Assembly: GCA_020692205.1 (NCBI GenBank)
Contig: JAIMKV010000028.1
Span: forward strand, 1 to 52,487
DNA: 52,487 nt
DNA from: Myxosarcina sp. GA_180221_E-2-1-MAG-40_15
GTDB taxonomy: Bacteria; Cyanobacteriota; Cyanobacteriia; Cyanobacteriales; Xenococcaceae
Direction of reading: 5' to 3'
The notes under the pieces are model-generated. The model saw only the letters and a list, made by a program, of their open reading frames with translations, did no database searches and had not been told where the DNA came from. The position numbers and the translations under genes are program-made. Positions 12,842 to 43,997 of this stretch are shown here, one piece after another (position 1 is the first letter of the stretch; the number at the start of each line of letters is the position of its first letter).

Positions 12842-12861
12842 ATCCAGTACAACAATTGAAA

Positions 12862-12889
12862 CTGACTCCTGACTCCTGACTTCTGACTT
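12862..12889 (+). repeat. Heptanucleotide short tandem repeat (STRR type)
   Basis: Four tandem heptamers: CTGACTC twice and then CTGACTT twice. They lie in the 56-bp gap between the adaptor and pump genes. Short heptanucleotide tandem repeats of this composition are a known cyanobacterial feature. Copy number may vary between strains without touching the coding sequence. Confidence 0.75.
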
Positions 12890-12897
12890 CTACCTAT

Positions 12898-15800
12898 ATG
12901 TTTTCATCTTTCTTTATTAAGCGACCTATTTTTGCCAGTGTTTGTGCCTTGCTAATTCTGTTGTTGGGGGCGGTTAGCATTCCTACTCTGCCGATCGCCC
13001 AGTATCCAGAGATCGCTCCTCCCCAAGTGACGGTTACGGCTAATTACGTCGGGGCTAGTGCCAGCGTCGTCGAAAATACAGTTACTAATATATTAGAACG
13101 AGAAATTAACGGAGTTGAGGCATCGCAATACATTTCCTCAACCAGTAGTAGTGGTAGCAGCACGATTAATATTACCTTCGAGCCTTCTAGAGATGCGGAC
13201 TTGGCAGCGGTTGATGTCCAAAATCGCGTTTCGATCGCTGAGGCACGCCTACCCGAGGCAGTTCAGCGTACTGGGGTAACGGTACAGCGCGAGAGTGCTG
13301 GTTTTTTAATGGCGATCGGCATTTATGCCGAAGACGAGCGCTATGACCCCATCTTTCTGAGTAACTACGCTGATATTTCAATGGCAGAGGCACTGCAACG
13401 AGTCAATGGGGTAGGAAATGTGCAAATCTTTGGCGAACGTCGTTACGCAATGCGTCTTTGGTTGAACCCCAATCTACTAGCAGCTCGCAATCTAACGCCT
13501 CAAGATGTGGTGGATGCCATTAACGAACAGAATTTGCAAGCAGCAATCGGAGGATTAGGACAACAGCCTTCTTCTGAGGACTTGCTTTATCAAATTGAGC
13601 TAGAAGCCAATACTCGCCTATCCAGCGTCGAAGAATTTGAAAATATTGTAGTTAGCTCTGGCGAAAATAACGCGCTGATTCAGGTCAGAGATATTGGGCG
13701 GGTGGAATTGGGCGCACAAGACTACAGCACCTTTTTAAGATTTAATGGACAGGAAGCTGTTGGTTTGGGCATTACCCAATTGCCTGGGAGTAATGCCTTA
13801 GAAGTTGCCAGTGCAGTTAAAGCAGAATTAGTTCGTTTAGCCGAAAGTTTTCCTCCTGGAATCAACTACCAGATTGCTTTTGATTCGACTGATTTTGTGA
13901 ATGAATCTCTTTCAGAGGTAGTTTTTACCTTAATTCAGGCGATTGTGCTGGTAATTTTAATCATTTTTATCTTCTTGCAAGATTGGCGCACCACGATTAT
14001 TCCCGTCCTGACTATTCCTACTTCTTTAATCGGCACTTTTATCTTCGTGAGGGCATTTGGCTTTTCGCTCAATACCCTGACTTTGTTCGGACTAACCCTG
14101 GCAACGGGAATGGTAGTAGATGATGCGATTATTGTGGTCGAAAACATCAGCCGACTGATTGAAGAAGGTCAGAGTCCTGGCAAAGCAGCGATCGCCTCCA
14201 TGAAGGAACTTTCTGGTGCTGTCATCGCTACTTCTTTAGTATTAATGGCGGTATTTCTGCCTGTAGCTTTTTTTCCTGGGTCAACAGGAGCAATATATCG
14301 TCAATTCGCCCTAACTCTCGCTTTTTCGATCGCTGTTTCTACTTTTCTAGCACTTACTCTCGCTCCTGCTGTTTCGGCACTGTTGCTGCGCCGAGAAAAC
14401 CAGCCTCCTCGTTGGCTTAATTGGTTTTTTACTCGGGTCAACCGCTTTTTGGACTGGGTACGACGCAAGTATCGCGGTTTATTAGAGAAAATAACTCATC
14501 TTAAAGGCGTTGTTATTGGTCTATTTATCCTTTCGTTAGGATTTACTGCTTACCTATATACCCAAGTTCCTGGCGGATTTCTGCCTGAAGAAGACCAAGG
14601 ATATTTTATTACCATCGCTCAAGGACCTCCAGGAGTATCTCTCGACTATACCAGAGAGGTATTAAAGCAAGCTGAAGCGGATATGTTGGCACTGCCAGAA
14701 GTTGAGGCTGTTTTTACCATTGGTGGTTTTAGTTTTGGGGGCGGTGGTGCTAATAGCGGCTTGATGTTTACCAATCTTAAGCCCTGGTCGCAACGCACCC
14801 AAGCCAACCAGTCAGCCCAGGCAATTATTAGCAACTTGAGTCAGCAGTTTGCGGCAATCCCCGAAGCCAGAATCTTACCCAACAATCCGCCAGCAATTCA
14901 AGGGCTTGGCTCTTTTGGTGGATTTACTTTACATCTCCAAGAACTGACCTCGGGAGGAGATATTAGTAATCTTTTCCAAGTGTCTAATCAATTTCTACAG
15001 CAAGCAAATCAGCGATCGCAACTAGATGCGGTCTATACTACTTTTACTGCTGATAGTCCTCGCTATCAGGTAAGTATCAATCGCGATGCAGCTAAAGCTC
15101 TGCAAGTGAATATTGACGATATTCTCTCTACCTTAGGCATTGCTTTAGGTTCACAATACGTTAACGACTTTACTCTACAGCAGCGTAATTATCGAGTTTA
15201 TGTCCAGGCAGACCAAGAATTTCGCGCTCAGCCAGATGATGTTAGACAGCTATACGTCCGTTCTGCCAACGATGAGATGATTTCTCTGGCTAATTTAGTT
15301 ACCCTGACTCCCGACTCTGGCCCTTCTACCATTCCTCACTTTAATTTGTTCCGAGCGATTGAAATCACGGGTTCGGCAGCCGACGGCTATAGTTCGGGAG
15401 AAGCAATTTCTACCATTGAAGAGGTGGCGCAAGCCAATTTGCCATCGGGTTATGACTATGCCTGGTCAGGAACAGCATTAGAAGAAATTAGCGCTGGTAA
15501 CCAAGCGCCAATAATTTTTGGCTTGGGGTTAGTGATGGTATTTCTAGTGTTAGCTGCCCAGTACGAAAATTATTTCGATCCGCTAATTATTCTGATGGCT
15601 GTACCTTTAGCGGTGATGGGGGCATTACTTGCCTTATCTCTAAGAGGATTGGATAATGATGTCTATGGTCAGATTGGTCTGGTGATGTTAATCGGTTTGG
15701 CAAGTAAAAATGCCATTCTGATTGTCGAATTTGCCAACCAACTGCGAGAGCAAGGTTATTCAATTGTTAAAGCTGCCGTCGAAGCTTCCGAACAACGCCT

Positions 15801-16086
15801 ACGTCCGATTCTGATGACGGCATTTTCCACCATTGTCGGTCTATTTCCTCTAGCGATCGCCAGCGGGGCGGGGGCTGCTTCCCGTCAATCTTTGGGAACA
15901 GTGGTAATTGGAGGGATGATTGTCTCTACTTTTCTGACTTTAATTATCGTTCCCGTACTGTATATTGTCATTTCAGGTTTTAGCGATCGCGTTGCTAAAC
16001 ATCTTCCTTCTCCTCCTACTGATCAAGAAACACAAAACGGTAAACGAGATCCAGCTCTTACTGGTTCTGTAGAAGCAAATAGATAA
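12898..16086 (+). CDS. RND multidrug efflux pump, inner-membrane subunit (HAE1/AcrB-like)
   Basis: A 1062-residue proton-driven efflux transporter, full length for the family, with 12 membrane segments and two large periplasmic loops. It begins FFIKRPIFASVCALLILLLG, the RND N-terminal signature. TM4 carries the paired proton-relay aspartates (GMVVDDAIIVVENI, about residue 407). PGGFLPEEDQGYF opens the second half and TAFSTIVGLFPLAIASG is the C-terminal TM block. It acts with the adaptor just upstream and a TolC-like channel encoded elsewhere. Substrates are probably hydrophobic or amphiphilic compounds. Confidence 0.95.
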   Translation: MFSSFFIKRPIFASVCALLILLLGAVSIPTLPIAQYPEIAPPQVTVTANYVGASASVVENTVTNILEREINGVEASQYISSTSSSGSSTINITFEPSRDADLAAVDVQNRVSIAEARLPEAVQRTGVTVQRESAGFLMAIGIYAEDERYDPIFLSNYADISMAEALQRVNGVGNVQIFGERRYAMRLWLNPNLLAARNLTPQDVVDAINEQNLQAAIGGLGQQPSSEDLLYQIELEANTRLSSVEEFENIVVSSGENNALIQVRDIGRVELGAQDYSTFLRFNGQEAVGLGITQLPGSNALEVASAVKAELVRLAESFPPGINYQIAFDSTDFVNESLSEVVFTLIQAIVLVILIIFIFLQDWRTTIIPVLTIPTSLIGTFIFVRAFGFSLNTLTLFGLTLATGMVVDDAIIVVENISRLIEEGQSPGKAAIASMKELSGAVIATSLVLMAVFLPVAFFPGSTGAIYRQFALTLAFSIAVSTFLALTLAPAVSALLLRRENQPPRWLNWFFTRVNRFLDWVRRKYRGLLEKITHLKGVVIGLFILSLGFTAYLYTQVPGGFLPEEDQGYFITIAQGPPGVSLDYTREVLKQAEADMLALPEVEAVFTIGGFSFGGGGANSGLMFTNLKPWSQRTQANQSAQAIISNLSQQFAAIPEARILPNNPPAIQGLGSFGGFTLHLQELTSGGDISNLFQVSNQFLQQANQRSQLDAVYTTFTADSPRYQVSINRDAAKALQVNIDDILSTLGIALGSQYVNDFTLQQRNYRVYVQADQEFRAQPDDVRQLYVRSANDEMISLANLVTLTPDSGPSTIPHFNLFRAIEITGSAADGYSSGEAISTIEEVAQANLPSGYDYAWSGTALEEISAGNQAPIIFGLGLVMVFLVLAAQYENYFDPLIILMAVPLAVMGALLALSLRGLDNDVYGQIGLVMLIGLASKNAILIVEFANQLREQGYSIVKAAVEASEQRLRPILMTAFSTIVGLFPLAIASGAGAASRQSLGTVVIGGMIVSTFLTLIIVPVLYIVISGFSDRVAKHLPSPPTDQETQNGKRDPALTGSVEANR

Positions 16087-16886: not shown

Positions 16887-18494
16887 ATGAAAATACTACC
16901 TAAGGTAACTAATTTTAAACGGTATTTACCAGCTAAATACCATAATAAAAGCTCTTTAAGTTCAAATTCAAAATTGTTAGTTGGACAAACAGTAGAAATT
17001 GAAACAGCCTCAGCTAACACATCGCATCTCCCAACCAATCAGCCAGGAGAGATGGTCAAATGGTCTCCAACGATGCAATCTTTGTTGGACGAGCCTCCGT
17101 CCAATCTACCGCTACAGTTAATTGTTGGCGGAATCATATTTTGCCTAGCTTTTGCCCTCTGGGCATGGTTTGGTGAAATTGACAAAGTAGGCAAGGCGCA
17201 AGGAAAGCTAGTTCCAAAAGGAGAAACCTACAAAATTGAGTCTTTAGAATCTGCCAGGGTAAGCCAGATTGCCGTCAAAGAAGGACAAGAAGTTAAGGCA
17301 GGTCAATTAATTGCCAGGTTAGATTCAGAGCAACAGATTAGAGAAGTTGAACGGCTACAAAACCTGCGGGACTCTTATCAACTAGAGCTAAATCAAAAAC
17401 GCCAGCTGTTAGCAAAAGTTGAAGTAGAAACCAAAACTCATCAATTAATTGCTCAAGCTGAAGTACAAGGTCAACAATCAGCCATTGATTCGGCGATCGC
17501 GGAAGCGAAAGTTGCCAACCAATTGCTTGCTCAACGACAGTCTGAATTAACGGCTTATTCAAGCAGAAAAAAGCGCGTTCAGGATCTGTCGGCATTAGAG
17601 CAAGAAAAACTTGACCAAATGAACTCAGAACTAAAAGAGCATCAACAGCGGCTAGCGAGACTTAAACCTTTGGCGAAAGCAGGAGCAATATCCCAAGAAG
17701 CTATGTTTCAGGCTCAGCAGGCTCAACGTCAGAGTCAACAACAATTAACCGACAATAAACTGCAAGGAATTAGTAATATCAGCGAACAGATATTTCAATC
17801 TGAACAGGCTCTAAGGGAAATGGAAGCCCAGATTACTCAAAGTCAAGGCAACTTGGTTTCTGGTCAAAAAGAAGTTGAGCGACTCCAAGCAGAATTAGCG
17901 TTAAAAAAAGCTGAGCGGCAGAGAATTGAGCTTGAGGCGCAACAGAAAGTGGCGCAGCTCAAGCTGGAAATTGGTCAAACTGAAACCAAAATAGCTGAAA
18001 CTAAAAATCAGCTCGCTGCCGCCGAGAATCTGCTCGAAAAAAGATCTTTGAGATCTCCCGTGGCTGGAACTGTTTTAGCTTTTAATGTTAGCAACACAGG
18101 GAAAGTGATTCAGTCAGGAGAAACTGTGGCTGAAATCGCCCCGCAAGGCTCTCCGTTAGTCCTTTCGGCTGTCTTACCCAATAGCGAAGCAGGCTTTATT
18201 GAGCCAGGTATGACGGCACAGATTAAGTTGGATGCCTACTCATATCAAGATTATGGAGTAATTCCTGGTGAGGTAATTTCCGTCTCAGCAGACACGAAAA
18301 CCGATGAAAAATTGGGTGCAGTCTACCAAGTGAAAATAGCACTCGAACGGAACTATGTTACTGAAGATCTTCAGAAAATCTTGTTTAAACCAGGACAAAC
18401 AGCTACTGCTGATATCGTGATTCGACAACAGCGAATCATCGATGTTTTGCTCGATCCGATTAAAAAACTTGAACAAGACGGCATTAATTTATAG
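16887..18494 (+). CDS. HlyD-family membrane fusion protein of an ABC peptide exporter
   Basis: A 535-residue type I secretion adaptor. A cytoplasmic N-terminal tail of about 70 residues precedes one membrane segment (about 75-96, LIVGGIIFCLAFALWAWFGE). Then comes a lipoyl half (VSQIAVKEGQEVKAGQLIARL), a very long Gln/Glu-rich coiled coil (about 150-385), a second lipoyl half (RSPVAGTVLAFNVSNTGKVI) and a beta-barrel domain ending near the C-terminus. It would bridge the inner-membrane peptidase-ABC exporter to an outer-membrane channel. It is 32 bp upstream of the HetP-like gene and about 600 bp upstream of the exporter on the same strand, which suggests one operon. Confidence 0.9.
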   Translation: MKILPKVTNFKRYLPAKYHNKSSLSSNSKLLVGQTVEIETASANTSHLPTNQPGEMVKWSPTMQSLLDEPPSNLPLQLIVGGIIFCLAFALWAWFGEIDKVGKAQGKLVPKGETYKIESLESARVSQIAVKEGQEVKAGQLIARLDSEQQIREVERLQNLRDSYQLELNQKRQLLAKVEVETKTHQLIAQAEVQGQQSAIDSAIAEAKVANQLLAQRQSELTAYSSRKKRVQDLSALEQEKLDQMNSELKEHQQRLARLKPLAKAGAISQEAMFQAQQAQRQSQQQLTDNKLQGISNISEQIFQSEQALREMEAQITQSQGNLVSGQKEVERLQAELALKKAERQRIELEAQQKVAQLKLEIGQTETKIAETKNQLAAAENLLEKRSLRSPVAGTVLAFNVSNTGKVIQSGETVAEIAPQGSPLVLSAVLPNSEAGFIEPGMTAQIKLDAYSYQDYGVIPGEVISVSADTKTDEKLGAVYQVKIALERNYVTEDLQKILFKPGQTATADIVIRQQRIIDVLLDPIKKLEQDGINL

Positions 18495-18526
18495 AACCAC
18501 AATCGAGATTTATTTAAGAAAAAATT

Positions 18527-18910
18527 ATGTATCATAATCTTAATTCTGCCAATTCCCAGCTAGACAGGGTGATGAGCGACGACCAGTTTAATCAAATAGT
18601 TGAAGCGATTATCTCGGGAAAATATTCTTGGGCGTGTCTATTGATTCTGCGCTTTTCAGGATACAATCCGCTACACTATATTCCCTATCGAACCTACAAT
18701 CGCTTGATGAAAGTCAATCAAGAGCCAAAACCTCAGTTAGTCAGCCAGTCGCGATCGCTTCAATCAACTCACCAATCTCCAACCAAGTTTCACGATTTAT
18801 GTTGTTTGGAAGAAGTTGATCGCCAGTCTCAGAAGATTAAAGGTGGTCAGAGGATATTTTCGCTTCAGGCAATGTCTAATGTGATCTGGCATAAATTTAG
18901 CAACAACTAA
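18527..18910 (+). CDS. HetP-family protein
   Basis: A 127-residue protein whose residues about 16-65 match the HetP domain: FNQIVEAIISGKYSWACLLI, then LRFSGYNPLHYIPYRTYNRL. In Nostoc/Anabaena, HetP family proteins act in commitment to heterocyst development, and hetP lies next to hetC. Here it lies between an HlyD adaptor and a HetC-like exporter, so the hetC-hetP association is kept but in a different order. The C-terminal half is unconserved and polar, with no membrane segment. The function here is unknown; a regulatory role over the secretion genes is inference. Confidence 0.82.
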   Translation: MYHNLNSANSQLDRVMSDDQFNQIVEAIISGKYSWACLLILRFSGYNPLHYIPYRTYNRLMKVNQEPKPQLVSQSRSLQSTHQSPTKFHDLCCLEEVDRQSQKIKGGQRIFSLQAMSNVIWHKFSNN

Positions 18911-18960
18911 ATAAAAGATAAGACGTTGGTGATTTGAGCTATGACTTTTCTTAGCTTTTA

Positions 18961-19055
18961 GCTGCGCAAAGCTCGGCTTTGCCAGTCGTCGAAGACGACG
19001 ATCTGCCCTAAAGGACTCGCTTCGCATCGCGCGTACGCGCTGCGCTTTTAGCTCT
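18961..19055. repeat. Dispersed palindromic repeat cluster
   Basis: A run of nested palindromes: AAAGCTCGGCTTT, GTCGTCGAAGACGAC, CCTAAAGGACTCGCTTCGC and GCGCGTACGCGC, ending in a T-run. This style of GC-rich interspersed repeat is common in cyanobacterial gaps. The AGTCCTTTAGGG word recurs in the repeat cluster at 24.6 kb. It could attenuate transcription between the HetP-like gene and the exporter gene. Confidence 0.65.
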
Positions 19056-19095
19056 TAGCTTTTTTAAGTCAACGTTTTTTACGGAGTAAGAGCAA

Positions 19096-22000
19096 GTGGA
19101 TATTACAGCAATAAAATCCCCGCCTTCTGAGGGGGGTTCAGAAAATCGGCTCACAGTTTTATCGTGGCTATTGAAGCAGGGTCAATTTGACCCAAACAAA
19201 ACCGAGTTAATTAAACATCTGAGTCAACAATTTGAAATTATTGATTTTCAATTGGGCGACAATTTGATGGTTCACTCAGGTTCTTCAACTTATTTAAACC
19301 AACCAAAACCAGGCTCGCAATATTTCTTTCTTATCTGTGAAGGGCGATCGCGATTGTTGGGCTTTGATGCCGATAAACAAAGAGAAGTTTCCACTAATCT
19401 CATGGCAGAAGGGGCAACCTTTGGTGGCGAATCTCTCTGGTGTCAGATTTTCCTGCCTTACAGGGTAGTAGCTGCTAGTCAAGTTAAAGTTGCCAGAATT
19501 TCTTTAGCCAAGCTAGCTGTTTATCGCCAAAAACTGCCAGAACTTGACACGAAATGGCGGCATATGGCTCAGCAACAGCAAAAACTCATCTTTTTAAAGA
19601 CGCTGACGCAATTACGCTCTCTATCTAGCCATCAAATTAAAAAATTGCTGCCTTATCTAGTAGCAACCAAGATTAAGGCTGGAGAATCTTTGAAATCAAA
19701 AGGGCAGACGGCTCGCTTTTGGTTACGGCATGGTCAAATTAAAGACCAGACGCTCAAAATAGGAGATTCGTGGGGATATTTAGAGTCGGCAAATCATCAT
19801 TGGATAGCTCAAAGCGATCTGCTAGTCTACCAATTGCCTCAAAAAAATTGGCAAATTTTCTCAGAACTTGCTCCTGAACTGGTAACTGCTTGGTCGAAAA
19901 ACCCTGAAGCTCAATTCAGCCAAACACCATTAGCTAAAACCAAAACTACTTCTAGCGTCAACGCTCTAGTTAATCTCAAAACTCCTAACTTAAGTATTAC
20001 CCATGTAGCTAGACCCGCTCCAGAGACTTCCTCTCAGCCTCCAGGCAGAGACGATGAGGTTCAAGAAATCGATTATCCCAGGCCGATCAAGCGTCGTAGT
20101 CGATGGAAAACCTATCCGTTTATCGAACAGCAAAGTTCCTCTGATTGTGGTGCAGCTTGTCTGGCAATGATTAGCCGATACTGGGGCAAGCGTTTGAGCC
20201 TCAACTTCTTACGGGAGAAAATCGGCATTGGACGTTCTGGGGCATCCCTCAAAAGTCTAGCCACGGCAGCAGAAAGCATCGGTTATCATGCTCGACCTGT
20301 CAGAGCTAGTCTAAGTCGTGTTGCCGAGCAAAACAAGCCTTGGATTGCCCATTGGCAGGGAGATCATTATGTAGTTGTTTACCGGGTCAAAGAAAATAAA
20401 ATTCTGGTTGCTGATCCAGGGAAAGGCAAGTTTGAGCTTTCAGGCTCAGAGTTTGCTAATAATTGGACAGGATACGCTCTGTTATTAGAGCCAACCGAAA
20501 ATTTAGCTGATGCACCAGAAGAAAAACGCTCTTTGAGTCGATTTTTTAAGCTGTTGTTGCCTTATCGTTCCATCGGCATCACGGTAATTATTGCCTCTTT
20601 ATTGATTCAACTTCTGGGTCTGATTTCCCCTTTGTTTACCCAGATAATTCTCGATCAAGTAGTAGCTAACAAAAGCCAGTCAACTTTAAATGTTCTAGTA
20701 ATTGGGCTTTTGATGTTTGGCGCTCTGGGCATTGGCTTGTCTTCGATCCGTAACTATCTACTGAGCTATTTAGCCAACCGTCTGGATCTAACCATGATTG
20801 GTGGGTTTATTAACCACGCTTTGAAGCTGCCGCTCAAGTTTTTTGAATCGCGCCGCGTGGGGGATATTATCACTCGTGTTCAGGAAAATCAAAAAATTCA
20901 ACAGTTTTTAATTCAAAATCTGCTGCTGTCTTGGTTGGATTTCTTGACGGGATTTGTCTATCTGGGGTTGATGCTCTACTATAACTGGCAGCTTACAGCT
21001 TTAATTTTGCTGTTAATTCCGCCAATTGTGCTTTTGACCCTAGCTGCTACTCCTTTACTCAGGAAGGTTTCACGGGATCGGTTTAACGCTACTGCGGATC
21101 AAAATTCTTCCCTGGTGGAAATGATGACTGGAATATCTACAGTCAAATCCGTAGCAGCGGAGCAAGATTTACGCTGGCGTTGGGAAGATCTGTTAACTCG
21201 TGAGCTAAATGTGCGCTTCAAAGGTCAAAAACTAGCGATTAATTTAGGACTGCTTAGCGGACTGATTAATTCAATTGGTGGAGCTTTGCTCCTGTGGTAC
21301 GGTGCAACCCTCGTGATCCAGGATCAATTGACTATTGGTCAGTATGTCGCTTTTAACATGATGAAGGACTATATCATTAGCCCCGTGATGGTTTTGGTGG
21401 AAATGTGGGATGAATTACAAGAAGTATTAATTTCTGTCGAACGTCTCAACGATGTCTTTGAAACTAAATCGGAAGAATCTCAGCGAGACTCGAAAATAAT
21501 TTTACCCAAGCTACAGGGAAATATATTATTGGATAATGTGACTTTTCGCTATGAAAATGAAGAAGAAGCCAACATTCTGCAAAATATTTCCTTGGAGGTG
21601 AAAGCAGGGCAGACTTTAGCGATTGTGGGGCGCAGCGGTTCGGGAAAAAGCACCTTAGTCAAGCTTATTCAAGGTTTGTACCATCCTCTTAGCGGTCAAG
21701 TTTCCATCGATGGACATAACCTGAAGCACGTTTCTCTTCAATCTTTGCGATCGCAAATGGGAGTTGTGCCACAAGACTGTTTTTTATTTTCAGGAACGAT
21801 CCTGGAAAATATTACTTTATATCGGGCTGAATTTTCTTTAGAACAAGCGATCGCTAGTGCTAAACTAGCAGAGGCTCATGCTTTTATCCAGGCTCTACCT
21901 TTGGGATATAACACTAAGGTGGGCGAACGGGGTGATAGTCTTTCTGGTGGGCAACGACAGCGAATTGCGATCGCTCGTGCTTTTTTGGGCGATCCACCAA

Positions 22001-22248
22001 TCTTGATTTTAGACGAAGCAACTAGTTCCCTCGATACGGAGTCGGAACAGCGTTTCCAGGACAATCTAACTCGTCTGTCCCGGCAGCGTACTACCTTGAT
22101 TATTGCCCATCGTCTTTCGACGGTGCGTAACGCAGACTGCATTATCGTCTTGGATCGAGGTTTGATCGTTGAGCAGGGAACTCACACTGAATTAATCGCC
22201 GAAAAGGGACTTTACTATCAGTTAGCAAAACAGCAATTGAGTCTCTAA
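19096..22248 (+). CDS. Peptidase-domain ABC exporter (HetC-like PCAT) with CNB-like N-terminus
   Basis: A 1050-residue exporter that should cut double-glycine leaders and export the mature peptide. Residues about 40-290 contain two cyclic-nucleotide-binding-like units (the first has FGGESL...YRVVA in the phosphate-cassette position). The C39 peptidase domain is at about 340-455 with the oxyanion Gln, catalytic Cys in SSDCGAACLAM (about 349), His in GDHYVVVY and Asp in ADPGKG. Six membrane segments follow (about 485-760). The nucleotide-binding domain has GRSGSGKST (about 843), LSGGQRQR, ILILDEATSSLD and AHRLSTV. The architecture and HetP neighbour match HetC. The GTG start at 19096 is supported by ACGGAG 8 nt upstream. 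All catalytic residues seem intact. Confidence 0.92.
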   Translation: MDITAIKSPPSEGGSENRLTVLSWLLKQGQFDPNKTELIKHLSQQFEIIDFQLGDNLMVHSGSSTYLNQPKPGSQYFFLICEGRSRLLGFDADKQREVSTNLMAEGATFGGESLWCQIFLPYRVVAASQVKVARISLAKLAVYRQKLPELDTKWRHMAQQQQKLIFLKTLTQLRSLSSHQIKKLLPYLVATKIKAGESLKSKGQTARFWLRHGQIKDQTLKIGDSWGYLESANHHWIAQSDLLVYQLPQKNWQIFSELAPELVTAWSKNPEAQFSQTPLAKTKTTSSVNALVNLKTPNLSITHVARPAPETSSQPPGRDDEVQEIDYPRPIKRRSRWKTYPFIEQQSSSDCGAACLAMISRYWGKRLSLNFLREKIGIGRSGASLKSLATAAESIGYHARPVRASLSRVAEQNKPWIAHWQGDHYVVVYRVKENKILVADPGKGKFELSGSEFANNWTGYALLLEPTENLADAPEEKRSLSRFFKLLLPYRSIGITVIIASLLIQLLGLISPLFTQIILDQVVANKSQSTLNVLVIGLLMFGALGIGLSSIRNYLLSYLANRLDLTMIGGFINHALKLPLKFFESRRVGDIITRVQENQKIQQFLIQNLLLSWLDFLTGFVYLGLMLYYNWQLTALILLLIPPIVLLTLAATPLLRKVSRDRFNATADQNSSLVEMMTGISTVKSVAAEQDLRWRWEDLLTRELNVRFKGQKLAINLGLLSGLINSIGGALLLWYGATLVIQDQLTIGQYVAFNMMKDYIISPVMVLVEMWDELQEVLISVERLNDVFETKSEESQRDSKIILPKLQGNILLDNVTFRYENEEEANILQNISLEVKAGQTLAIVGRSGSGKSTLVKLIQGLYHPLSGQVSIDGHNLKHVSLQSLRSQMGVVPQDCFLFSGTILENITLYRAEFSLEQAIASAKLAEAHAFIQALPLGYNTKVGERGDSLSGGQRQRIAIARAFLGDPPILILDEATSSLDTESEQRFQDNLTRLSRQRTTLIIAHRLSTVRNADCIIVLDRGLIVEQGTHTELIAEKGLYYQLAKQQLSL

Positions 22249-22251
22249 AAG

Positions 22252-23049
22252 TTAAGATGACACGCGATCGCTATGTATCATGTAGTTTAGTTCACTATCT
22301 AGCCACTGTTTAAAAATGCGATTGATAATCTCTTGACGTATTTTAGGAGTTAATTGAGCGGGAATAAATTCCTCAATCTTAAACAAATGATATCCTAGCT
22401 CTGATTTGAGCGGGCCAATTATTTCGCCGACGGCAACTGGAGTTTTAAATATGGCGGCAGCTATGTCTGGGGGATAATCCCAGCGATGTACTTTTCCCTC
22501 ATACCCACACACATAGCGGCGTTGTTCATTGATGTCGTAAAGGTGAGCCGCTTGATAAAAACTAATCTCTTCTTCTTCGATTTGGTAAAAAAGTTCTTGA
22601 GCCAGTTTTTCATAAGGGACTACCAGCTGATAAAGCACACATCGGTCAAAATTTAGGCGATTTTGGGCAAAATAAGCCTCTACTTGGGAATCAAACAGGC
22701 TTTTAGCCAGTTTATCCGCCATAAGATGTTTATTGATGGCAATTTCCCATTGATCAGGGTCAAGCAGATTGTCTGCCAACCAAGCCATAGTATCAGCTGC
22801 TTTTTCTAAACGCAGCGAACAGCGAATTTGGTTGGCTTCAGTCTCAATTTCCGCTTCGGTAACGGTAATGTTTCTGGAAGAGGCAGCTTCGGCAATAATC
22901 TTTTGATAGAGAAGTTCGCAACATATTTGCTTGAGCTTTAGCTCTTGTTTGAGATGTTCTTCAATTTCAGCCGTTTCAATTTCAATACTCTTGAATTTGA
23001 CCATTTTACGCTTACCAAGACATTCATTTACAATATTGGAGTTTTTCAT
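22252..23049 (-). CDS. Parvulin-type peptidyl-prolyl isomerase (SurA/PpiC-like)
   Basis: A 265-residue protein with an N-terminal helical chaperone-like part (residues about 20-130, AEIEEHLKQELKLKQICCEL) and a PpiC/rotamase-like part (about 132-232, FDRCVLYQLVVPYEKLAQ ... VGEIIGPLKSELGYHLFKIEEF). No signal peptide is visible, so a periplasmic site is doubtful unless it is co-secreted. An internal start at 23004 (MVKFKSIEI) is possible and gives the more typical N-terminus. Such SurA-like proteins recur next to HlyD and C39-ABC genes in cyanobacterial peptide-export clusters. It is convergent with the exporter, 3 bp apart. A substrate-folding role is inference. Confidence 0.78.
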   Translation of the reverse strand: MKNSNIVNECLGKRKMVKFKSIEIETAEIEEHLKQELKLKQICCELLYQKIIAEAASSRNITVTEAEIETEANQIRCSLRLEKAADTMAWLADNLLDPDQWEIAINKHLMADKLAKSLFDSQVEAYFAQNRLNFDRCVLYQLVVPYEKLAQELFYQIEEEEISFYQAAHLYDINEQRRYVCGYEGKVHRWDYPPDIAAAIFKTPVAVGEIIGPLKSELGYHLFKIEEFIPAQLTPKIRQEIINRIFKQWLDSELNYMIHSDRVSS

Positions 23050-23330
23050 AGTAGAACTGTTTAATTGAGAAATTGGTCGTAAAGATATGTTTAATAGATT
23101 TATTAAGAATCTATTAACCTTGCTGATATAGCCTATGCTATCTACCGCTTTCTGTATTTAATGCTCTATATAAACATAATTATTGGTTCAAGCAAAATAT
23201 AAATGCCAAATTGGCAACATCTAAAAATTTGTTCGGGTTATCTTATGTACATAGAAACGAAACATAGTTTTAACTAGTTTTAACTAATTAGTTTCTTACC
23301 AAAAACTAAACAAACACGAGGTAAAACATT

Positions 23331-23576
23331 ATGATTATTTCTGATCTTCAGTACATCGAATCAGTTGACACTTCCGAAATCCAAGGTGGTAGCGGTTACT
23401 ATAAAAAACCTGACTATAAAAAAGGTGGCAAGGCTCAGGCAGATGCTTATGCTGACGCTAGTGCTTATGGAAAATATACTTACGCTTACACTAATACCTA
23501 CGCAGTAGCAGATGCAGGTAAATATAGCGGTGCCAGCTCTAGCTCTAGTGCTTATGCTAGTAATAAGTGGTATTAA
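23331..23576 (+). CDS. Double-glycine leader peptide precursor 1 (Ala/Tyr/Ser-rich)
   Basis: An 81-residue precursor. Residues 1-20 (MIISDLQYIE... to Gly19-Gly20) form an acidic double-glycine leader, the substrate signature of C39 peptidases, here with an exporter 1.1 kb upstream. The 61-residue core has no cysteine, so it is not a lanthipeptide or disulfide bacteriocin. It is made of Ala/Tyr/Ser with Lys and Gly, in alternating patterns such as AQADAYADASAYGKYTYAY, ending in a Ser run and KWY. A strong Shine-Dalgarno (GAGGT, from 23318) precedes the ATG by 8 nt. The core resembles fibrous low-complexity proteins. The leader call is strong; the role of the product is unknown. Confidence 0.82.
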   Translation: MIISDLQYIESVDTSEIQGGSGYYKKPDYKKGGKAQADAYADASAYGKYTYAYTNTYAVADAGKYSGASSSSSAYASNKWY

Positions 23577-23969
23577 ATAGATACCAAACTAGGCTAATAA
23601 TTAAACGGGAATGTTCACGGCTTAATCATAATTTAGCTAAAAAAGCTAAGCGTATTTAGCAGATTTTTACTAAGTATCGCGATGATTATCAGAACATTCC
23701 CTAAACTCTTACTACAGAAAATAAAAATCGATTTTTTTAATGGAAGTAAAAGAGTTGTTGCTGTTAGCCACCGTATCTAAAATTAATCAAAATATTTTGG
23801 TGTTGTTGAGTGGGAATTAGGCTTATTTAAGCTAAGCCGATTTTCGGACTTATTGTGGTGTGACGAGTCATATTATAGTAAGTTCATGCCATTCGGCAAC
23901 GCCCATTTGTTGATTTTGGATTGATGACAATTTGAAGCAATCACAAGTTTTTCATGAGGCTATTTAGCT
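23577..23969. other. Intergenic region between the two leader-peptide genes
   Basis: About 390 bp. No further double-glycine precursor is seen; the longest forward ORF (starting near 23681) codes for about 32 residues without a leader. AT-rich sequence before 23970 is probably the promoter and leader of the second precursor gene. Confidence 0.4.
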
Positions 23970-24290
23970 ATGTTTATTCATGATTTAGAATTCATCAACC
24001 CTTTTGATCGAGATTATTCGCCAGATAATTTGGGAATCGGGGGAGGGGCATCAGCTTCGACAAGCGCCAATACCAGTGCCAGTAATGGTGCAGTTTCCGC
24101 CTTGGCATCGGCATCAGCATCAGGCGTTTATAGCCGCGCCCTAGCCAAAACCAGGGTCAAGTTACTCACCAAAAGTTCTCCTTATGGTGGCTATACTGCT
24201 GGTTACGCCACAGGGTATGGAGCAGCATACGGTGCAGAGCGGTACGGCACTTTAGCTGTAGATCGAAGTGTTAGCACTTCAGTACTTTAG
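23970..24290 (+). CDS. Double-glycine leader peptide precursor 2 (Ala/Ser-rich)
   Basis: A 106-residue precursor. Its first nine residues MFIHDLEFI match those of precursor 1 (MIISDLQYI) under the pattern M-[IF]-I-x-D-L-x-[YF]-I. The leader ends at a Gly run (Gly24-Gly26, LGIGGG). The core starts ASASTSANTSASNGAVSALA, then a basic patch (SRALAKTRVKLLTKS), then a Gly/Tyr/Ala segment (GGYTAGYATGYGAAYGAERY). No cysteine is present. It looks like a paralog of precursor 1 with a diverged core, exported by the same peptidase-ABC transporter. The product's function is unknown. Confidence 0.78.
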   Translation: MFIHDLEFINPFDRDYSPDNLGIGGGASASTSANTSASNGAVSALASASASGVYSRALAKTRVKLLTKSSPYGGYTAGYATGYGAAYGAERYGTLAVDRSVSTSVL

Positions 24291-24524
24291 ATAGTACTGT
24301 TCATCAATACTCATTTATTCATTCTGGTATCAGAATGTCAAATCTAATTCAGCACAATTTAATCAAATTTATTTAGGGCTTGCTCAAAATTCCCACTATG
24401 TAGGTAATTTACTCGGATGAAGTCATGATGTTTTGGAGACTTCTCGATCCAGGGGCTTTTTGGCAATTGCCCTGATTTTCTCATATTTGACCAAAATAGA
24501 TCGTAGGGACAAACGGTGAAGCAA

Positions 24525-24690
24525 TGCGCGATGAGCGACACGCGACACGCGACGCGAAGCGCAAAAGTGCGGTCTTGGGGGTTTCCCCCATGAGCAACTT
24601 TTGTAAGAAGCTAGTCCTTTAGGGAAGCTAGTCCTTTAGGGAACTTAGTACCACAAGGGTATAACATCCTTTAAAAAAGCTAGTCCTTTT
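24525..24690. repeat. Dispersed repeat cluster with 17-bp tandem units
   Basis: It contains a hairpin TGGGGGTTTCCCCCA (24575-24589) nested in an outer imperfect stem, then AAGCTAGTCCTTTAGGG twice in tandem (24608-24624, 24625-24641) and a third partial copy at 24677-24689. The unit shares the AGTCCTTTAGGG word with the cluster at 18961-19055 (there in complement). It fills most of the 418-bp gap between the second precursor and the Ser-rich small gene. This is typical cyanobacterial interspersed repeat, not CRISPR: units lack unique spacers. Confidence 0.7.
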
Positions 24691-24708
24691 ATTATTAACC
24701 AATGAACC

Positions 24709-24909
24709 ATGACTAAATATAGATACAGGGTTGAGCGGCAAAAAATTGTCTCACCTGATGGCAAAGCTGTTGCCGAAGCAACCAGCAGCGTTTTCACTTC
24801 TGCCGATAACCAAACTGAGATTGAGCAAAATGTTTCAGTAAACGTGACTCAGAGCAATAGTAGTAGTAGTAGTAGCTCAACATCAAGTTCTAGTATTAGG
24901 GCTAACTAG
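24709..24909 (+). CDS. Ser-rich small protein, unknown
   Basis: A 66-residue protein: a basic start (MTKYRYRVERQKIVSPDG), a middle AVAEATSSVFTSADN, and a C-terminus that is a near-pure serine run (SSSSSSSTSSSS). There is no double-glycine leader, no cysteine and no membrane segment. It follows the two precursor genes on the same strand and shares their low-complexity character, so it may belong to the same locus, but nothing proves that. Similar KYxYRVE...SPDGK proteins seem to occur in other cyanobacteria; I do not know a function. Confidence 0.5.
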   Translation: MTKYRYRVERQKIVSPDGKAVAEATSSVFTSADNQTEIEQNVSVNVTQSNSSSSSSSTSSSSIRAN

Positions 24910-25023: not shown

Positions 25024-26745
25024 CTAAGCAAAGTCATTAAAACTATAGACGCGATCGCTATTGCCAAAATAGAATGCTTCGATATTTTCAACTATCAACA
25101 TCGAATCTGCATCTTCAATAGTAAGAGCCTGATTACGAGATGAGCCGAGGCTAATTTTGTAATCGTCTATATTGCCCCACAGCTTGAGAACATCATAATC
25201 TCTACCGCCATCAATCGCTACGATACCTGCAAAACCGCCGATCTCAAAGGTATCATTACCGCGATCGCCAAAAACTGCTGCATTTTTAATCGAGCCAGAC
25301 TGATCCTCGGGAAAATCAACTTCTCTAGTGAATGGATTAAAATCGACTATCGCTGCTTGGAAATAGTCATTACCTTGACCTAATTTAATTTCACTGTCTT
25401 CAACGCCAATATTGCTACCATAGGCAATAATTCGATCGTTACCCTTTCCTGTGTCGATGTTACCGCCTTTAATGCCGACTACGCCGTAGCCAATAATTTG
25501 ATCGTCTCCCTCAGATGTTTCAATTACTCCCGAGGTATTATCAATGCCAATGGCGATCGCTCTTGAGGTGTCGGCGATTGAGTTAGTATCAGTTTGGGAA
25601 TTTGAATCATCAGCAATACTGACTGCATTGGCGCTGGCATCTGCCATAGCAGTAGCATTGTTAACTGCGATACCGATAATCATGTCATTACCTCTGCCGG
25701 TAGCGATCGCGCCAGTATTTACAATTCCGACAGTATCACTTTCGCCAATCGCCATAGATTCAGCATCTGCTGCTGCAATAGCTAGATCACGAGCCACAGA
25801 TTCGGCATTAGCGATCGCCTGAGAATTACTCAAAATTCGAGTATTAGCTACACCAAAAATTAGATCATCGCCTTGTCCCGTATGGATTTGACCAGAGTTA
25901 AAAATTCCGAAGGTACTGGTTTTACTATTAGTTATAGTTGCAGATGTGCTGCTAGAAATAGCTGTCTCAATTTGATTGACAACTTCAAAATCACAATCTG
26001 TAGATCCAGCAGCAATATTGCTGGCTAAGGCAGTAGCTTCCGCCTGACTATCTGCCCAGGTATTAGCTACACCAATGATCATGTCATTACCTTTGCCAGT
26101 TGCGATCTCACCTATATTACCAATTCCAATCGCTAGAATATTTGCAGACGCAATCGACTTACTATTAGCAGTGGCAGAAGACTTATTACCAAAAATTGCT
26201 TCAGCTTGGGAGACAGTTTTGGCGCTAGCAGCCGCCGAAGCATTAGCTACACCGATGAGCGTATCATTACCATTACCAGTGATGATCTTACCTAGATTAT
26301 CAATTCCGATCGCCAGTGCATCGGCTACGGCGATCGCTTCACTCTCAGCCTTGGCAGGCAACTCATTACCCAAAATTACTGCAAGAGCGATCGCTATAGA
26401 TTCACTGACAGCAGAGGCATTAGCTACACCCAAAATAGTGTCATTATCTCTACCAAGAGCAATTTTATCGATAATTTCTGTACCGATAGCAATAGCATTA
26501 GCTTGGCTATTGGCGATCGTCAAAAATACATTCTCACCAACAGATTGAGATTCTATTTGAGAATTATCGGCTAGATCTCCATTATGCCAAAATGAGTTCT
26601 TTCTGCCTTCAAAGCTATATTCTTCAATCTTAATAACCTTGGATAAAGAAATCAATACATCATCAATAACTAGCTTATTTGCTAATGATATATTTTGAAA
26701 AACCTGATTGAGTTTATTTACTTTAGTCAAAATATTTAGCCACAT
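25024..26745 (-). CDS. Ala/Ser-rich repeat protein with RTX-like beta-roll rungs
   Basis: A 573-residue protein with nine rungs of the form I-x-TGxGNDxIIGVAN (for example GNGNDTLIGVANASA, GKGNDMIIGVANTWA), an RTX-like calcium-binding or beta-solenoid pattern. After each of the first five rungs comes an Ala/Ser-rich insert of roughly 35-60 residues (such as ASAVSESIAIALAVI). The C-terminal block (LIVENIEAFYFGNSDRVYSF) is conserved with the repeat protein at 47922-49265. No N-terminal signal peptide is seen; RTX-type proteins are usually exported by type I systems through a C-terminal signal. It lies at the end of the peptide-export locus, on the opposite strand, and shares the A/S-rich composition of the precursors. 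Function is unknown. Confidence 0.75.
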   Translation of the reverse strand: MWLNILTKVNKLNQVFQNISLANKLVIDDVLISLSKVIKIEEYSFEGRKNSFWHNGDLADNSQIESQSVGENVFLTIANSQANAIAIGTEIIDKIALGRDNDTILGVANASAVSESIAIALAVILGNELPAKAESEAIAVADALAIGIDNLGKIITGNGNDTLIGVANASAAASAKTVSQAEAIFGNKSSATANSKSIASANILAIGIGNIGEIATGKGNDMIIGVANTWADSQAEATALASNIAAGSTDCDFEVVNQIETAISSSTSATITNSKTSTFGIFNSGQIHTGQGDDLIFGVANTRILSNSQAIANAESVARDLAIAAADAESMAIGESDTVGIVNTGAIATGRGNDMIIGIAVNNATAMADASANAVSIADDSNSQTDTNSIADTSRAIAIGIDNTSGVIETSEGDDQIIGYGVVGIKGGNIDTGKGNDRIIAYGSNIGVEDSEIKLGQGNDYFQAAIVDFNPFTREVDFPEDQSGSIKNAAVFGDRGNDTFEIGGFAGIVAIDGGRDYDVLKLWGNIDDYKISLGSSRNQALTIEDADSMLIVENIEAFYFGNSDRVYSFNDFA

Positions 26746-27211: not shown

Positions 27212-28405
27212 ATGTACGCTCATAAAACTCGACAAGGACAGGCGAACCTCAACAGAACAGATAAAAATACTTATGTCGTAAATCTTCCCGTAAACGTAGC
27301 TAAAAGTATTTACAAGAAAAGCAGAAAAAGAATTGCCTTATATCTAAACGCAGACAGCAAGGAAACTATGGCTGCTGCTCTTTGCCGTCTCGACAAAATA
27401 CAGGCTTTGCTAGATGCCGAAGACTGGCAAGGACTGCTTGATTATGAAGAGTCTTTAAAGCCTAAAGTTGTACAAGGAATTTTTGCTAGACAGTCGCTTA
27501 AATGGCTTTGGGATGAATATGTAAAAGCCAAGCAGGATAGCTGGGAGGTTTCTTACATAGAGAATGATGTCAAACAAGCAACCAGAATAATTAATAAATG
27601 TCCAAAAATTAGCTTGACTGATGATGGCGCGAACGAACTATACAACTACATGATGGAGACTACCACGCCTCAGCAAACCAAGCGTTATTTAAAGCAATTT
27701 TCAGCTTGTATTACATGGGCAAAGAGAAGAAGAATTGTCAAAGATAATCCTTATCCAGACCTTATCAAAACAATCTCAACTAGGCGGAAGAATGAAGACG
27801 AACGCGATATTAATCCTTTTACCAAGGAAGAAAGAGATTTAATTATTGAAGCTTTTCGCTCTGGAAGGCTTGAAAGATACAAAGGAAGCCATACAAAATA
27901 TGCAGATTACATAGAATTTACTTTTCTTACAGGGGCAAGGAGCAGTGAATCTCTTGGCTTGAAGTGGGGGCATATTGACTTTGAGAATAATAAAATTAAC
28001 TTTCAAGAGGGTAGGGTTCTAGCTACTAATGGTAGTTATGGCAAAGGGGTTCAGAAAAAAGGATTAAAAACACAGAAGAAAAGAGTTTTCCCTATGAACC
28101 CTCGCCTCAAAAAATTATTATTAAATCGTAAAGCAAACTTGTGTCCTGGCAGTTTAGAAGATAATGTTTTTGTCGATATGAATCATTCTTCTTTCAGAGG
28201 CAATCAATACACGAAAGTCTTGAAAGAGCTTGAAATTGATTATCGCAGACCTTATTGTATGCGCCATACCTTTATTACTTTGATGGCTAACGAAACTGAT
28301 TTGAAACTGCATCAAATATCACAAATTTGCGGTACTTCCATTGATGTCATCGAGAGACACTATTTATCTAAAGCCTCATGTATCGAGAACTTACCTGATG
28401 TTTAA
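27212..28405 (+). CDS. Tyrosine recombinase / integrase
   Basis: A 397-residue site-specific recombinase. An N-terminal arm-binding region is followed by a SAM-like core-binding domain (about 85-180) and the catalytic domain (about 195-390). Visible catalytic features: Arg in LTGARSSESLGLKW, the basic hairpin GLKTQKKRVFPM with the likely Lys, Arg in YCMRHTFITLMA, and the nucleophilic Tyr in IERHYLS. The usual His of HxxR is Tyr here (RPYCMRHT), a tolerated variant in this family. It lies beside the tRNA-Ser remnant, so it probably recombines at that tRNA's 3' half. Low HIP1 content and AT-rich coding fit a transferred element. Confidence 0.92.
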   Translation: MYAHKTRQGQANLNRTDKNTYVVNLPVNVAKSIYKKSRKRIALYLNADSKETMAAALCRLDKIQALLDAEDWQGLLDYEESLKPKVVQGIFARQSLKWLWDEYVKAKQDSWEVSYIENDVKQATRIINKCPKISLTDDGANELYNYMMETTTPQQTKRYLKQFSACITWAKRRRIVKDNPYPDLIKTISTRRKNEDERDINPFTKEERDLIIEAFRSGRLERYKGSHTKYADYIEFTFLTGARSSESLGLKWGHIDFENNKINFQEGRVLATNGSYGKGVQKKGLKTQKKRVFPMNPRLKKLLLNRKANLCPGSLEDNVFVDMNHSSFRGNQYTKVLKELEIDYRRPYCMRHTFITLMANETDLKLHQISQICGTSIDVIERHYLSKASCIENLPDV

Positions 28406-28634
28406 ATTTAATTGAAAATGTCTGCTTAGATTCTGCTAACCAATGGTTTTATTGATATTAATTATTCAGATAAAACTAACTAAAAACTGCAAAATTTGGT
28501 TTATGTCTAGTAACTCTAACCAAGCTACAGCTAAACGAAACTTACAGAGAAAGTAAGAATCAAAAATAGTTAGCGTTAACCCAACTTATAGGTTAAGTTT
28601 CGGTTAGAATCTTTTACTCATAGTTCCTATACAT

Positions 28635-28658
28635 AACGCCTCCCGTGGGGCGTTTTTT
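28635..28658 (+). terminator. Intrinsic terminator downstream of the integrase
   Basis: AACGCCTC (28635-28642) pairs with GGGGCGTT (28647-28654) around a CCGT loop, then a T-run. It lies 230 bp after the integrase stop. Confidence 0.75.
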
Positions 28659-28829
28659 GTTTGCCCTAACTAACCCCTATCGTATTCTTCTAATATTACC
28701 CAACGAATTATAAATCATAGCAACTTATACCTATCTTCAGAAACAGACCCCTAAAATCGGCTAGAAGCGATCGCTGGTTGAACGCTAACAACAAAGGCAT
28801 TAACTGCCCCTTAACTCAAGTTACATCCT

Positions 28830-28964
28830 ATGGGGTGCATATCAACTCCGTTAAGATATTCCTCCGAGGCGGAACAAGCAAAAAAGCTAGCTGAAGCCGA
28901 AGAATGTCCACCGCTTGTCCGTAGGATTTTTCGCAGCAGAAAAACGGTTGACGTTCGGAGGTGA
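28830..28964 (+). CDS. Candidate 44-residue basic protein
   Basis: An ATG at 28830 opens 44 codons: MGCISTPLRYSSEAEQ, then a helical stretch (AKKLAEAEE), then CPPLVRRIFRSRKTVDVRR. The composition (amphipathic helix plus basic tail) looks coding and not random, but there is no good Shine-Dalgarno. It lies between the integrase and the replication initiator, where small control proteins such as excisionases or copy-number regulators are often found. Function is unknown. Confidence 0.35.
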   Translation: MGCISTPLRYSSEAEQAKKLAEAEECPPLVRRIFRSRKTVDVRR

Positions 28965-29082
28965 AAGCGTAAAATCTCGTTTAACCGCCTAAGAAGGATA
29001 TCTGCGATAGCTACTGCTACTCTACCGCTACCAGAGTAAAATCACTTCAGTTAACCCTAGACACTGAGGGCATATTTCTAGA

Positions 29083-29122
29083 GAGTGACATACTTTGTGT
29101 CACTCATTTCAGATACCCACCC
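29083..29122. repeat. Hairpin plus repeat copy 1 of the element
   Basis: GAGTGACA (29083-29090) pairs with TGTCACTC (29098-29105). The overlapping 33-nt repeat copy 1 runs 29090-29122 (ATACTTTGTG...TTTCAGATACCCACCC). Confidence 0.6.
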
Positions 29123-29224
29123 AACCTAAGCTAATTATCTTCACCCAAAGTTAACTCTAGAAATTTCTATTACTTCATCTGTACTTCAGAAGAAATTTAG
29201 CTAAGCATTTTCCTAAATCGTTGA

Positions 29225-29257
29225 ATACTTTGTGACACACTTTTCAGATACCCACCC
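29225..29257. repeat. 33-nt direct repeat copy 2 of the element
   Basis: This is ungapped against copy 1 at 29090-29122 with few mismatches, 135 bp downstream. It ends in TTTCAGATACCCACCC and contains the small palindrome TGTGACACA. It lies about 170 bp upstream of the initiator gene. Confidence 0.65.
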
Positions 29258-29423
29258 CTACAGCCAAAAAAGACTAACTAAGTAAGGTAGTTGTAACTAC
29301 CTATGTTCTATTTGCACTATTTTTGAAGCTTCAGGTACAACAGTACAAGCAAACTAGTTCAGCTTTTATAGACAAAAAAAAAGAAGCTCTGACAAGCAGA
29401 ACTAACTTTCCTTACTAAACGAA

Positions 29424-43917: not shown

Positions 43918-43997
43918 ATATTGCTGCTACAAAAAAGATTTTCCCAAGCCATATTTACCTGATCTCTAAGCAAACAACTAACAACTAACCAAATGTC

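Follow-up and report, generated by a model that had tools for sequence, protein, structure and literature searches.

Which protein does HetC, the peptidase-containing exporter of heterocyst-forming cyanobacteria, export? This standing question is raised by an export locus in a 52,487-nucleotide stretch of Myxosarcina sp. DNA (GenBank assembly GCA_020692205.1, contig JAIMKV010000028.1), called here the window; it is contig C21 of a 4.87 Mb genome in 131 contigs. The locus joins an exporter related to HetC with two small double-glycine (GG) precursors and with the protein HetP, and an internal GG leader in this HetP points to HetP itself as a likely client. In what we take to be the heterocyst-forming family, moreover, the GG of HetP and the tail behind it are mostly kept with HetC and mostly lost without it. 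The six genes span about 8 kb (16887 to 24290); they are listed with their parts and the open reading frame (ORF) that follows them.

16887 to 18494, plus strand: HlyD-family type I secretion adaptor, 535 amino acids (aa); TIGR01843, 237.7 bits (cut-off 208.65), and PF13437
18527 to 18910, plus strand: HetP-family protein, 127 aa; NF037966, 115.4 bits (cut-off 45), E 6.4e-34
18539 to 18718, plus strand: HetP domain, residues 5-64, a predicted three-helix unit (profile coordinates; AlphaFold2)
18785 to 18847, plus strand: internal GG leader of HetP, residues 87-107, KFHDLCCLEEVDRQSQKIKGG; score 12.0 with the free-precursor leader matrix
18848 to 18907, plus strand: last 20 aa of HetP, a tail behind the GG with the sequence QRIFSLQAMSNVIWHKFSNN, proposed to be released as a peptide (from translation)
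19096 to 22248, plus strand: long-type peptidase-containing ATP-binding cassette (ABC) exporter, 1050 aa, GTG start; PF03412, PF00664, PF00005
20113 to 20499, plus strand: C39 peptidase domain of the exporter, with Cys, His and Asp motifs (aligned motifs)
22252 to 23049, minus strand: PpiC/SurA-type peptidyl-prolyl isomerase, 265 aa; PF00639 (Rotamase), 36.1 bits (cut-off 21.7), E 1.3e-8
23331 to 23576, plus strand: precursor A, 81 aa, with leader 1-20, MIISDLQYIESVDTSEIQGG, and a Tyr/Ala/Ser-rich core; rank 1 of 666 starts
23970 to 24290, plus strand: precursor B, 106 aa, with a leader to Gly24-26 and an Ala/Ser/Gly-rich core; rank 2 of 666 starts
24709 to 24909, plus strand: Ser-rich ORF of 66 aa without a GG leader (from translation)

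An earlier sequence-only reading of this DNA had placed these six genes in 8 kb and taken them for a HetC-type export locus with GG substrates of its own, the peptidase intact and the precursors free of cysteine. Each gene is indeed in its place; the exporter has the motifs DCGAAC, GDHYVVV and ADPG, in which we assume the catalytic Cys, His and Asp to lie; precursors A and B contain no Cys and outscore every other start in the window. The range proposed there extended to 24909, and the last ORF in it turned out to lack a GG leader. The stronger point, the leader inside HetP, had been missed.

HetP tails were scored with a position matrix built from the leaders of 107 free precursors, and compared with shuffles of the same tail. 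The window HetP, the sole HetP match in its genome, reaches 12.0, or 11.7 when the window is left out of the matrix. Among the loci then analysed, the level above 99.9% of shuffles was attained by 77 of the 94 HetPs with an ABC or HlyD match nearby and by 8 of 41 others; these eight were six hetP orthologues from family f6, one tail at a contig end (L072) and one tail (L135) that lacks GG and looks like chance. We take f6 to be the heterocyst-forming family, because its genomes have one to four HetPs and HetC-type genes, and its other C39 exporters group with those of Nostoc, Calothrix and Iningainema.

A similar picture was given by a draw of 290 genomes from the class, 72 of which had a HetP match. 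Loci were fetched around most HetP places, 60 outside f6 (L040-L099) and 40 in it (L100-L139), leaving aside some further places in f6 and one in G100. Outside f6 the leader motif was present in 42 of 45 exporter-linked HetPs, in 5 of 8 with partial linkage or at contig edges, and in none of 7 unlinked ones; in f6 it was present in all four beside HetC and in 10 of the other 36.

The residues after the GG have a composition of their own: across 77 tails, Trp, Phe and Tyr amount to 16.9%, compared with 1.9% in the linker that precedes the leader, and Trp alone to 5.8% against 0.0%. In the 70 tails from loci outside L100-L139, Trp occurs in 52 and the median length is 17 aa, the shortest tails having 7 (GIAAWFR, FRELPWF, AKNWWYF). 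AlphaFold2 predicts helices at residues 18-29, 33-43 and 54-64 of the window HetP (block-mean predicted local distance difference test score, pLDDT, >90 over residues 21-60) and, with low confidence, no structure for the tail including the leader stretch; on this model the leader should therefore be accessible. Solved folds included none convincingly like the HetP domain (best E 4.5).

We then ask whether this leader and tail depend on HetC. The name is used here for an exporter of 1042-1058 aa that lies directly upstream of hetP without HlyD and falls in the clade described below, and it implies no comparison with the HetC of strain PCC 7120. Matches to HetC (E at most 1e-260) were found in 64 of 119 f6 genomes, and to HetP in 117. 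HetP was read in 102 of them: all 55 that were HetC-negative on first call and 47 of the 62 HetC-positive genomes with HetP. In this sample, where 30 HetP loci were picked as best matches to intact HetP (which favours intact tails) and 20 further HetC-positive genomes were picked by hand, an intact leader followed by 12 or more aa of tail occurred in 39 of 47 HetC-positive and 5 of 55 HetC-negative genomes on first call (Fisher test, 7e-15). The 15 unread HetC-positive genomes have no in-frame stop in the match table, and 14 align past the GG in the best row.

The five negatives with an intact tail were G350, G363, G372, G436 and G113. When the N-domain of HetC was sought in all 55 negatives, exactly the first four matched; with this rescue, which covered the HetC-negative set only, the counts become 43 of 51 against 1 of 51 (Fisher test, 4e-19), or 25 of 29 against 1 of 27 at genus level. 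A HetC-type C39 domain lies beside HetP in G363, G372 and G436; G350 has a HetC remnant without it.

Of the 24 HetC-type exporters whose C39 motifs were examined, 20 came from a search for the domain in 22 genomes, which included all eight HetC-positive exceptions. Two exceptions, G370 and G404 (genus g192; L280 and L281), have Ser at the catalytic Cys of HetC, and in G370 the active-site His is moreover replaced by Asp, both positions being our assignment; the HetPs of the two genomes stop four residues past the GG position. If these two dead HetCs and the remnant are counted as absent, an intact leader and tail is seen in 44 of 48 genomes with HetC against 4 of 54 without; this count uses a wider pattern that allows GA sites and R in the YLE box, and both 'intact' and HetC are thus defined differently from the counts of 39 of 47 and 43 of 51.

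The damage in HetC-less genomes is varied. By eye, a stop falls within the aligned HetP in 24 of the 55 first-call negatives against 4 of 62 positives, one of which (G430) has it in a HetP copy not beside HetC. The lesions include stops after VVGK, VVGKK or KDIA, the changes RGS, RNS and RAN, and deletions. The GG is lost also at the HetC-less loci L105, L106, L110, L112 and L113, where a C39 exporter of another clade lies within 5 kb of hetP; the link is therefore to HetC, not to any C39 exporter. At the same five loci and at L101, another C39 exporter is accompanied by HlyD, 2-9 kb from hetP.

On the whole we consider it probable that the window holds an export locus of a clade that includes HetC, serving two classes of clients, free precursors and HetP. 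Gene content, leader similarity, linkage, the exporter clade and co-loss can all be read in the sequences themselves. As to mechanism, the C39 domain would bind the leader (I-x-D-L-x-Y-L/I-E ... x-GG) and cut after the GG; the core would be secreted through the ABC exporter, together with HlyD and an outer-membrane channel (none was found in the window). The cores of precursors A and B, the first class, are Cys-free and rich in Ala, Ser and Tyr and would probably function on the cell surface or within the matrix; PpiC may aid their folding. HetP, the second, would be docked to the exporter through its leader, and its tail probably cut off and exported, with HetP altered as a result. The tail would leave the cell or enter the periplasm, the latter in HetC lineages without HlyD, and lineages that have no HetC would possess a HetP in no need of trimming.

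At four hetC-hetP loci HlyD was without a match up to 7 kb from hetP, and free GG ORFs were not seen. With this HlyD absent from the version in heterocyst-formers and no free precursors visible nearby, HetP is left as the main candidate for the HetC substrate; judged by sequence, it is the leading one, and it is directly testable. A more specific proposal we make tentatively, rating it slightly below an even chance: HetP would be a precursor equipped with a leader and would serve HetC as its physiological substrate; HetC would cut after the GG and export an aromatic peptide (of at least 7 aa, median 17); heterocyst commitment would have been built from such an export locus, and HetC-less lineages would carry a naturally trimmed, exporter-independent HetP. 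Its weakest step is which event matters, trimming, tail export or docking alone.

Published genetics of PCC 7120 fit the pairing of HetP with HetC. A hetC peptidase mutant is fully complemented when hetP is moderately over-expressed, and the two proteins accumulate close to the heterocyst poles (PMC4133259); the peptidase and ATPase residues of HetC are required (PMC10986499). The latter paper, from 2024, states that near hetC nothing encoding a protein with the typical leader has been found, and asks if peptides derived from HetP might be exported. Nodularia spumigena has HetP without HetC (PMC3610870), as do the HetC-less genomes of f6. In the open-licence literature we found no paper that joins the HetP leader to HetC.

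A number of facts speak against HetP as a cleaved client. The motif of the window HetP is weak, since 4 out of 5000 shuffled versions of the tail reach 12.0 and the best reaches 16.1. HetC occurs without an intact tail in G356, G434, G419 (genus g178, RGRG for RGG) and G373, and the C39 motifs are present in the two g178 genomes read. Conversely, in G113 and G350 the tail is intact and a HetC with its C39 domain is missing, and G379 and G409 have a tail without active HetC, intact only by an NGA site under the wider pattern. In-frame stops are listed in the HetC matches of G360, G384, G370, G358 and G426; among the four of these genomes with HetP read, all except G426, HetP is intact in G384 and G358 and has GA for GG in G360. 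A tree of HetP DNA gave five supported independent pairs (mean 3.7 agreeing, none opposing; sign test not significant), and with only five, relatedness may underlie the association. Many HetC-less HetPs retain the leader helix and lose only the GG and the tail, so the helix may have another use. Finally, the published HetP with green fluorescent protein fused to its C-terminus is functional and polar (PMC4133259), which fits poorly with obligatory removal of the tail.

The last two facts favour the alternative that survives best, which we nevertheless regard as unlikely: the leader would be a docking site only, and HetP a regulator or anchor on the exporter, neither cut nor exported. Against it, the GG and the tail, beyond the helix, track HetC, the tails have an aromatic composition of their own, and the two HetCs that lack the catalytic Cys are paired with HetP tails cut short.

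The free precursors, the other proposed class of clients, stand out clearly. The leader of precursor A ends at Gly20 (IQGG), that of B at Gly24-26. All 666 ATG, GTG and TTG starts of the window with frames of 35-220 aa were scanned with a matrix from the free precursors of other loci, the window excluded; A scored 36.8 and B 20.6, and the third-ranked start 9.6. Homologues of A were found in L015 (two places), L007 (five, one clipped by the end of the locus) and L023, and one of B in L015 (40% identity over 100 aa); the exporters of L015 and L007 are close relatives of that in the window, while L023 has one of the 43% kind. In the window genome the precursor-A profile has a single match. The leader pattern picked out 160 ORFs in 3.15 Mb of 180 sequences, a set that includes some genomes twice, against 2 in the same sequences reversed.

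These searches yielded 122 distinct free precursors, ATG-started and outside HetP, with cores of 13.2% Ala, 13.1% Ser and 10.0% Thr; 8 of the 122 have Cys in the core, in line with the Cys-free character that the sequence-only reading had claimed for the precursors. Core A and 18 chosen relatives, from Pleurocapsa to Nostoc, align with an alternating A-x-A pattern, and AlphaFold2 predicts, with moderate confidence, three beta-strands in core A (block-mean pLDDT 65-79, overall mean 61). The precursor cores fall outside every Pfam and NCBIfam model at the respective cut-offs, and no solved fold is convincingly like core A (best E 0.2). The small GG-leader proteins EbfG1-4 of Synechococcus elongatus, exported with the aid of the C39 peptidase PteB, have a role at the surface and in the matrix, which shows that GG proteins in cyanobacteria can belong to the matrix and be amyloid (PMC4997328, PMC9981879). 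Their likeness to precursors A and B is one of leader and export class, not of compared core sequence. By this analogy with the EbfG amyloids, and from the predicted strands, a matrix or fibre function of the free precursors is plausible.

Two further explanations, which we rate as equally improbable, concern the role of these small proteins. In the first, the locus is an antimicrobial cluster, as clusters of this kind were named by Wang et al. 2011, in which HetP as well as the small ORFs would supply precursors of bacteriocins; the genes present and the class of leader do match their group II (PMC3140520). Against it, the free cores are rich in Ala, Ser and Thr and mostly without Cys, and the cyanobacterial GG proteins found to have a tested role, EbfG1-4, serve biofilms (PMC4997328, PMC9981879); the Pfam scan of 30 window ORFs revealed nothing recognisable as an immunity gene, which is weak evidence. 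In the second, the free precursors would build matrix or fibres, as the sequence-only reading proposed, and HetP would be a regulator unrelated to them that happens to lie in the same locus; EbfG1-3 provide an amyloid precedent (PMC9981879) and the strands of core A agree with it, but this alone does not explain why HetP has a leader and is linked to the exporter.

The relation of the exporter to HetC comes from trees. In the window exporter PF03412, ABC_membrane and ABC_tran all score above cut-off; the C39 domain occupies residues 340-468, preceded by some 340 aa, in which a cyclic-nucleotide domain gives 21.7 bits (E 2e-4), under its cut-off of 27.5. A careful tree of 35 exporters unites 24 linked to HlyD and HetP with 4 of HetC type in one clade (support 100/100), apart from 7 other C39 exporters; the HetC-type ones form a sub-clade of their own (100/100), and the window exporter is outside it. 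A quick tree favoured nesting of HetC inside the HlyD-HetP exporters; the careful tree and the approximately unbiased test (p 0.424) leave nested and sister positions undecided, and we make no claim. The closest exporters in named records are from Pleurocapsa, Xenococcaceae and Hyellaceae (84 to 62% identity); since these are Pleurocapsa/Xenococcus-type, the host by kinship presumably forms no heterocysts. Its genome has three C39 places by profile search. Of solved structures, Protein Data Bank entry 4ry2, which we take to be PCAT1, and others match residues 333-1046 (E 1.1e-141), leaving the N-terminal 330 residues uncovered; PCAT1 is likewise a peptidase-containing ABC exporter, but from a Gram-positive bacterium and working without HlyD.

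The layout of the locus is not new, since the window fits the group II clusters of Wang et al. 2011: both have HlyD, a long-type C39 ABC exporter with CAP_ED, a SurA/rotamase gene, a HetP-like ORF and GG precursors, the last two being frequent but not universal in group II and both present here (PMC3140520). The order HlyD-HetP-ABC differs. Among the extra modification genes of group II is an M16 peptidase; the families found in the window include none (30 ORFs scanned with Pfam). The same paper noted the motif KIxDLxYLEx10GG in HetP, as did one of 2015 (PMC4558948); both treat HetP as a bacteriocin precursor, which the former supposes is perhaps cut by an M16 peptidase; in the parts read, the former does not tie the motif to HetC (PMC3140520). 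The hetC-hetP loci of heterocyst-formers share with the window an exporter of the same clade, a cyclic nucleotide-like region, the C39 motifs and an adjacent HetP with a GG leader (PMC10986499, PMC4133259). PpiC is 3′ of hetP in L109 and L116 as well, with 49% and 51% identity to that of the window, which is 71-76% identical to PpiC of L006, L007 and L015.

Among the 60 loci outside f6, exporter and HlyD accompany HetP in 46, always with all three on one strand; exporter-HetP pairing is thus present in many cyanobacteria outside the heterocyst-forming family. The gene order is ABC-HlyD-HetP in 43, and HlyD-HetP-ABC, which the sequence-only reading had suggested as the order to search for, exists in 3 and is also the order in the window; PpiC is also near in 35. 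That reading thus holds as to a HetC-type export locus with its own substrates, less so as to an order that is rare and a layout published in 2011. Precursors do occur beside orthologous exporters, so that their absence, which that reading had named as a refuting result, was not observed: without correction for contig ends, one or more free GG ORFs were located within 9 kb in 31 of the 46 loci, and in the other 15 there were none. In L086, L087 and L088, HetP has no exporter; next to it are a PpiC with 39-40% identity and a fragment that shares 28-30% identity with the N-terminus of the exporter.

Least probable of all is that HetC and the HetP tail go together by shared ancestry, one or a few lineages having lost both by drift: the few supported pairs, with their non-significant sign test, and a REKKSA-like ending common to many HetC-less genomes support it, but several types of lesion (stops at different codons, GG substitutions and deletions) and the genera g162 and g174, which hold both states and agree, oppose it; genus g8 disagrees, and g192 shows no difference.

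The surroundings of the locus show some further features. The 66-aa ORF at 24709-24909 has a weak homologue in L012 (40% over 42 aa), directly after the PpiC gene there. Short repeats of the AGTCCTTTAGGG type are situated between the HetP and ABC genes (18997-19023) and 3′ of precursor B (24607-24689). At 25024-26745, minus strand, a 573-aa protein rich in Ala, Ile and Gly has A-x-A runs and G-x-G-N-D-x-I-x-G units, which to us resemble RTX, and no Pfam match at 0.1; with homologues near the same kind of exporter in L006 (46%) and in L034 (28%), it is possibly another exported protein. Tyrosine integrase-like and Rep_trans replication-initiation genes adjoin the locus at 27212-30629, probably as a mobile element. 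Upstream, at 11375-16086, is an AcrB-type resistance-nodulation-division pump with its own HlyD-like adaptor; downstream, at 42616-45146, a HlyD-like adaptor and an FtsX-like permease form a pair that we presume to be DevB/DevC-like.

What deserves attention, then, is a HetC-clade exporter with two classes of clients, one of which would be HetP, together with the association between HetC and the HetP tail. The same exporters would have Cys-poor, matrix-like peptides as their second class, and the search for a HetC substrate becomes a simple test of cleavage on the neighbour HetP. The pairing of exporter and HetP also suggests where the commitment step of heterocyst development may have originated.

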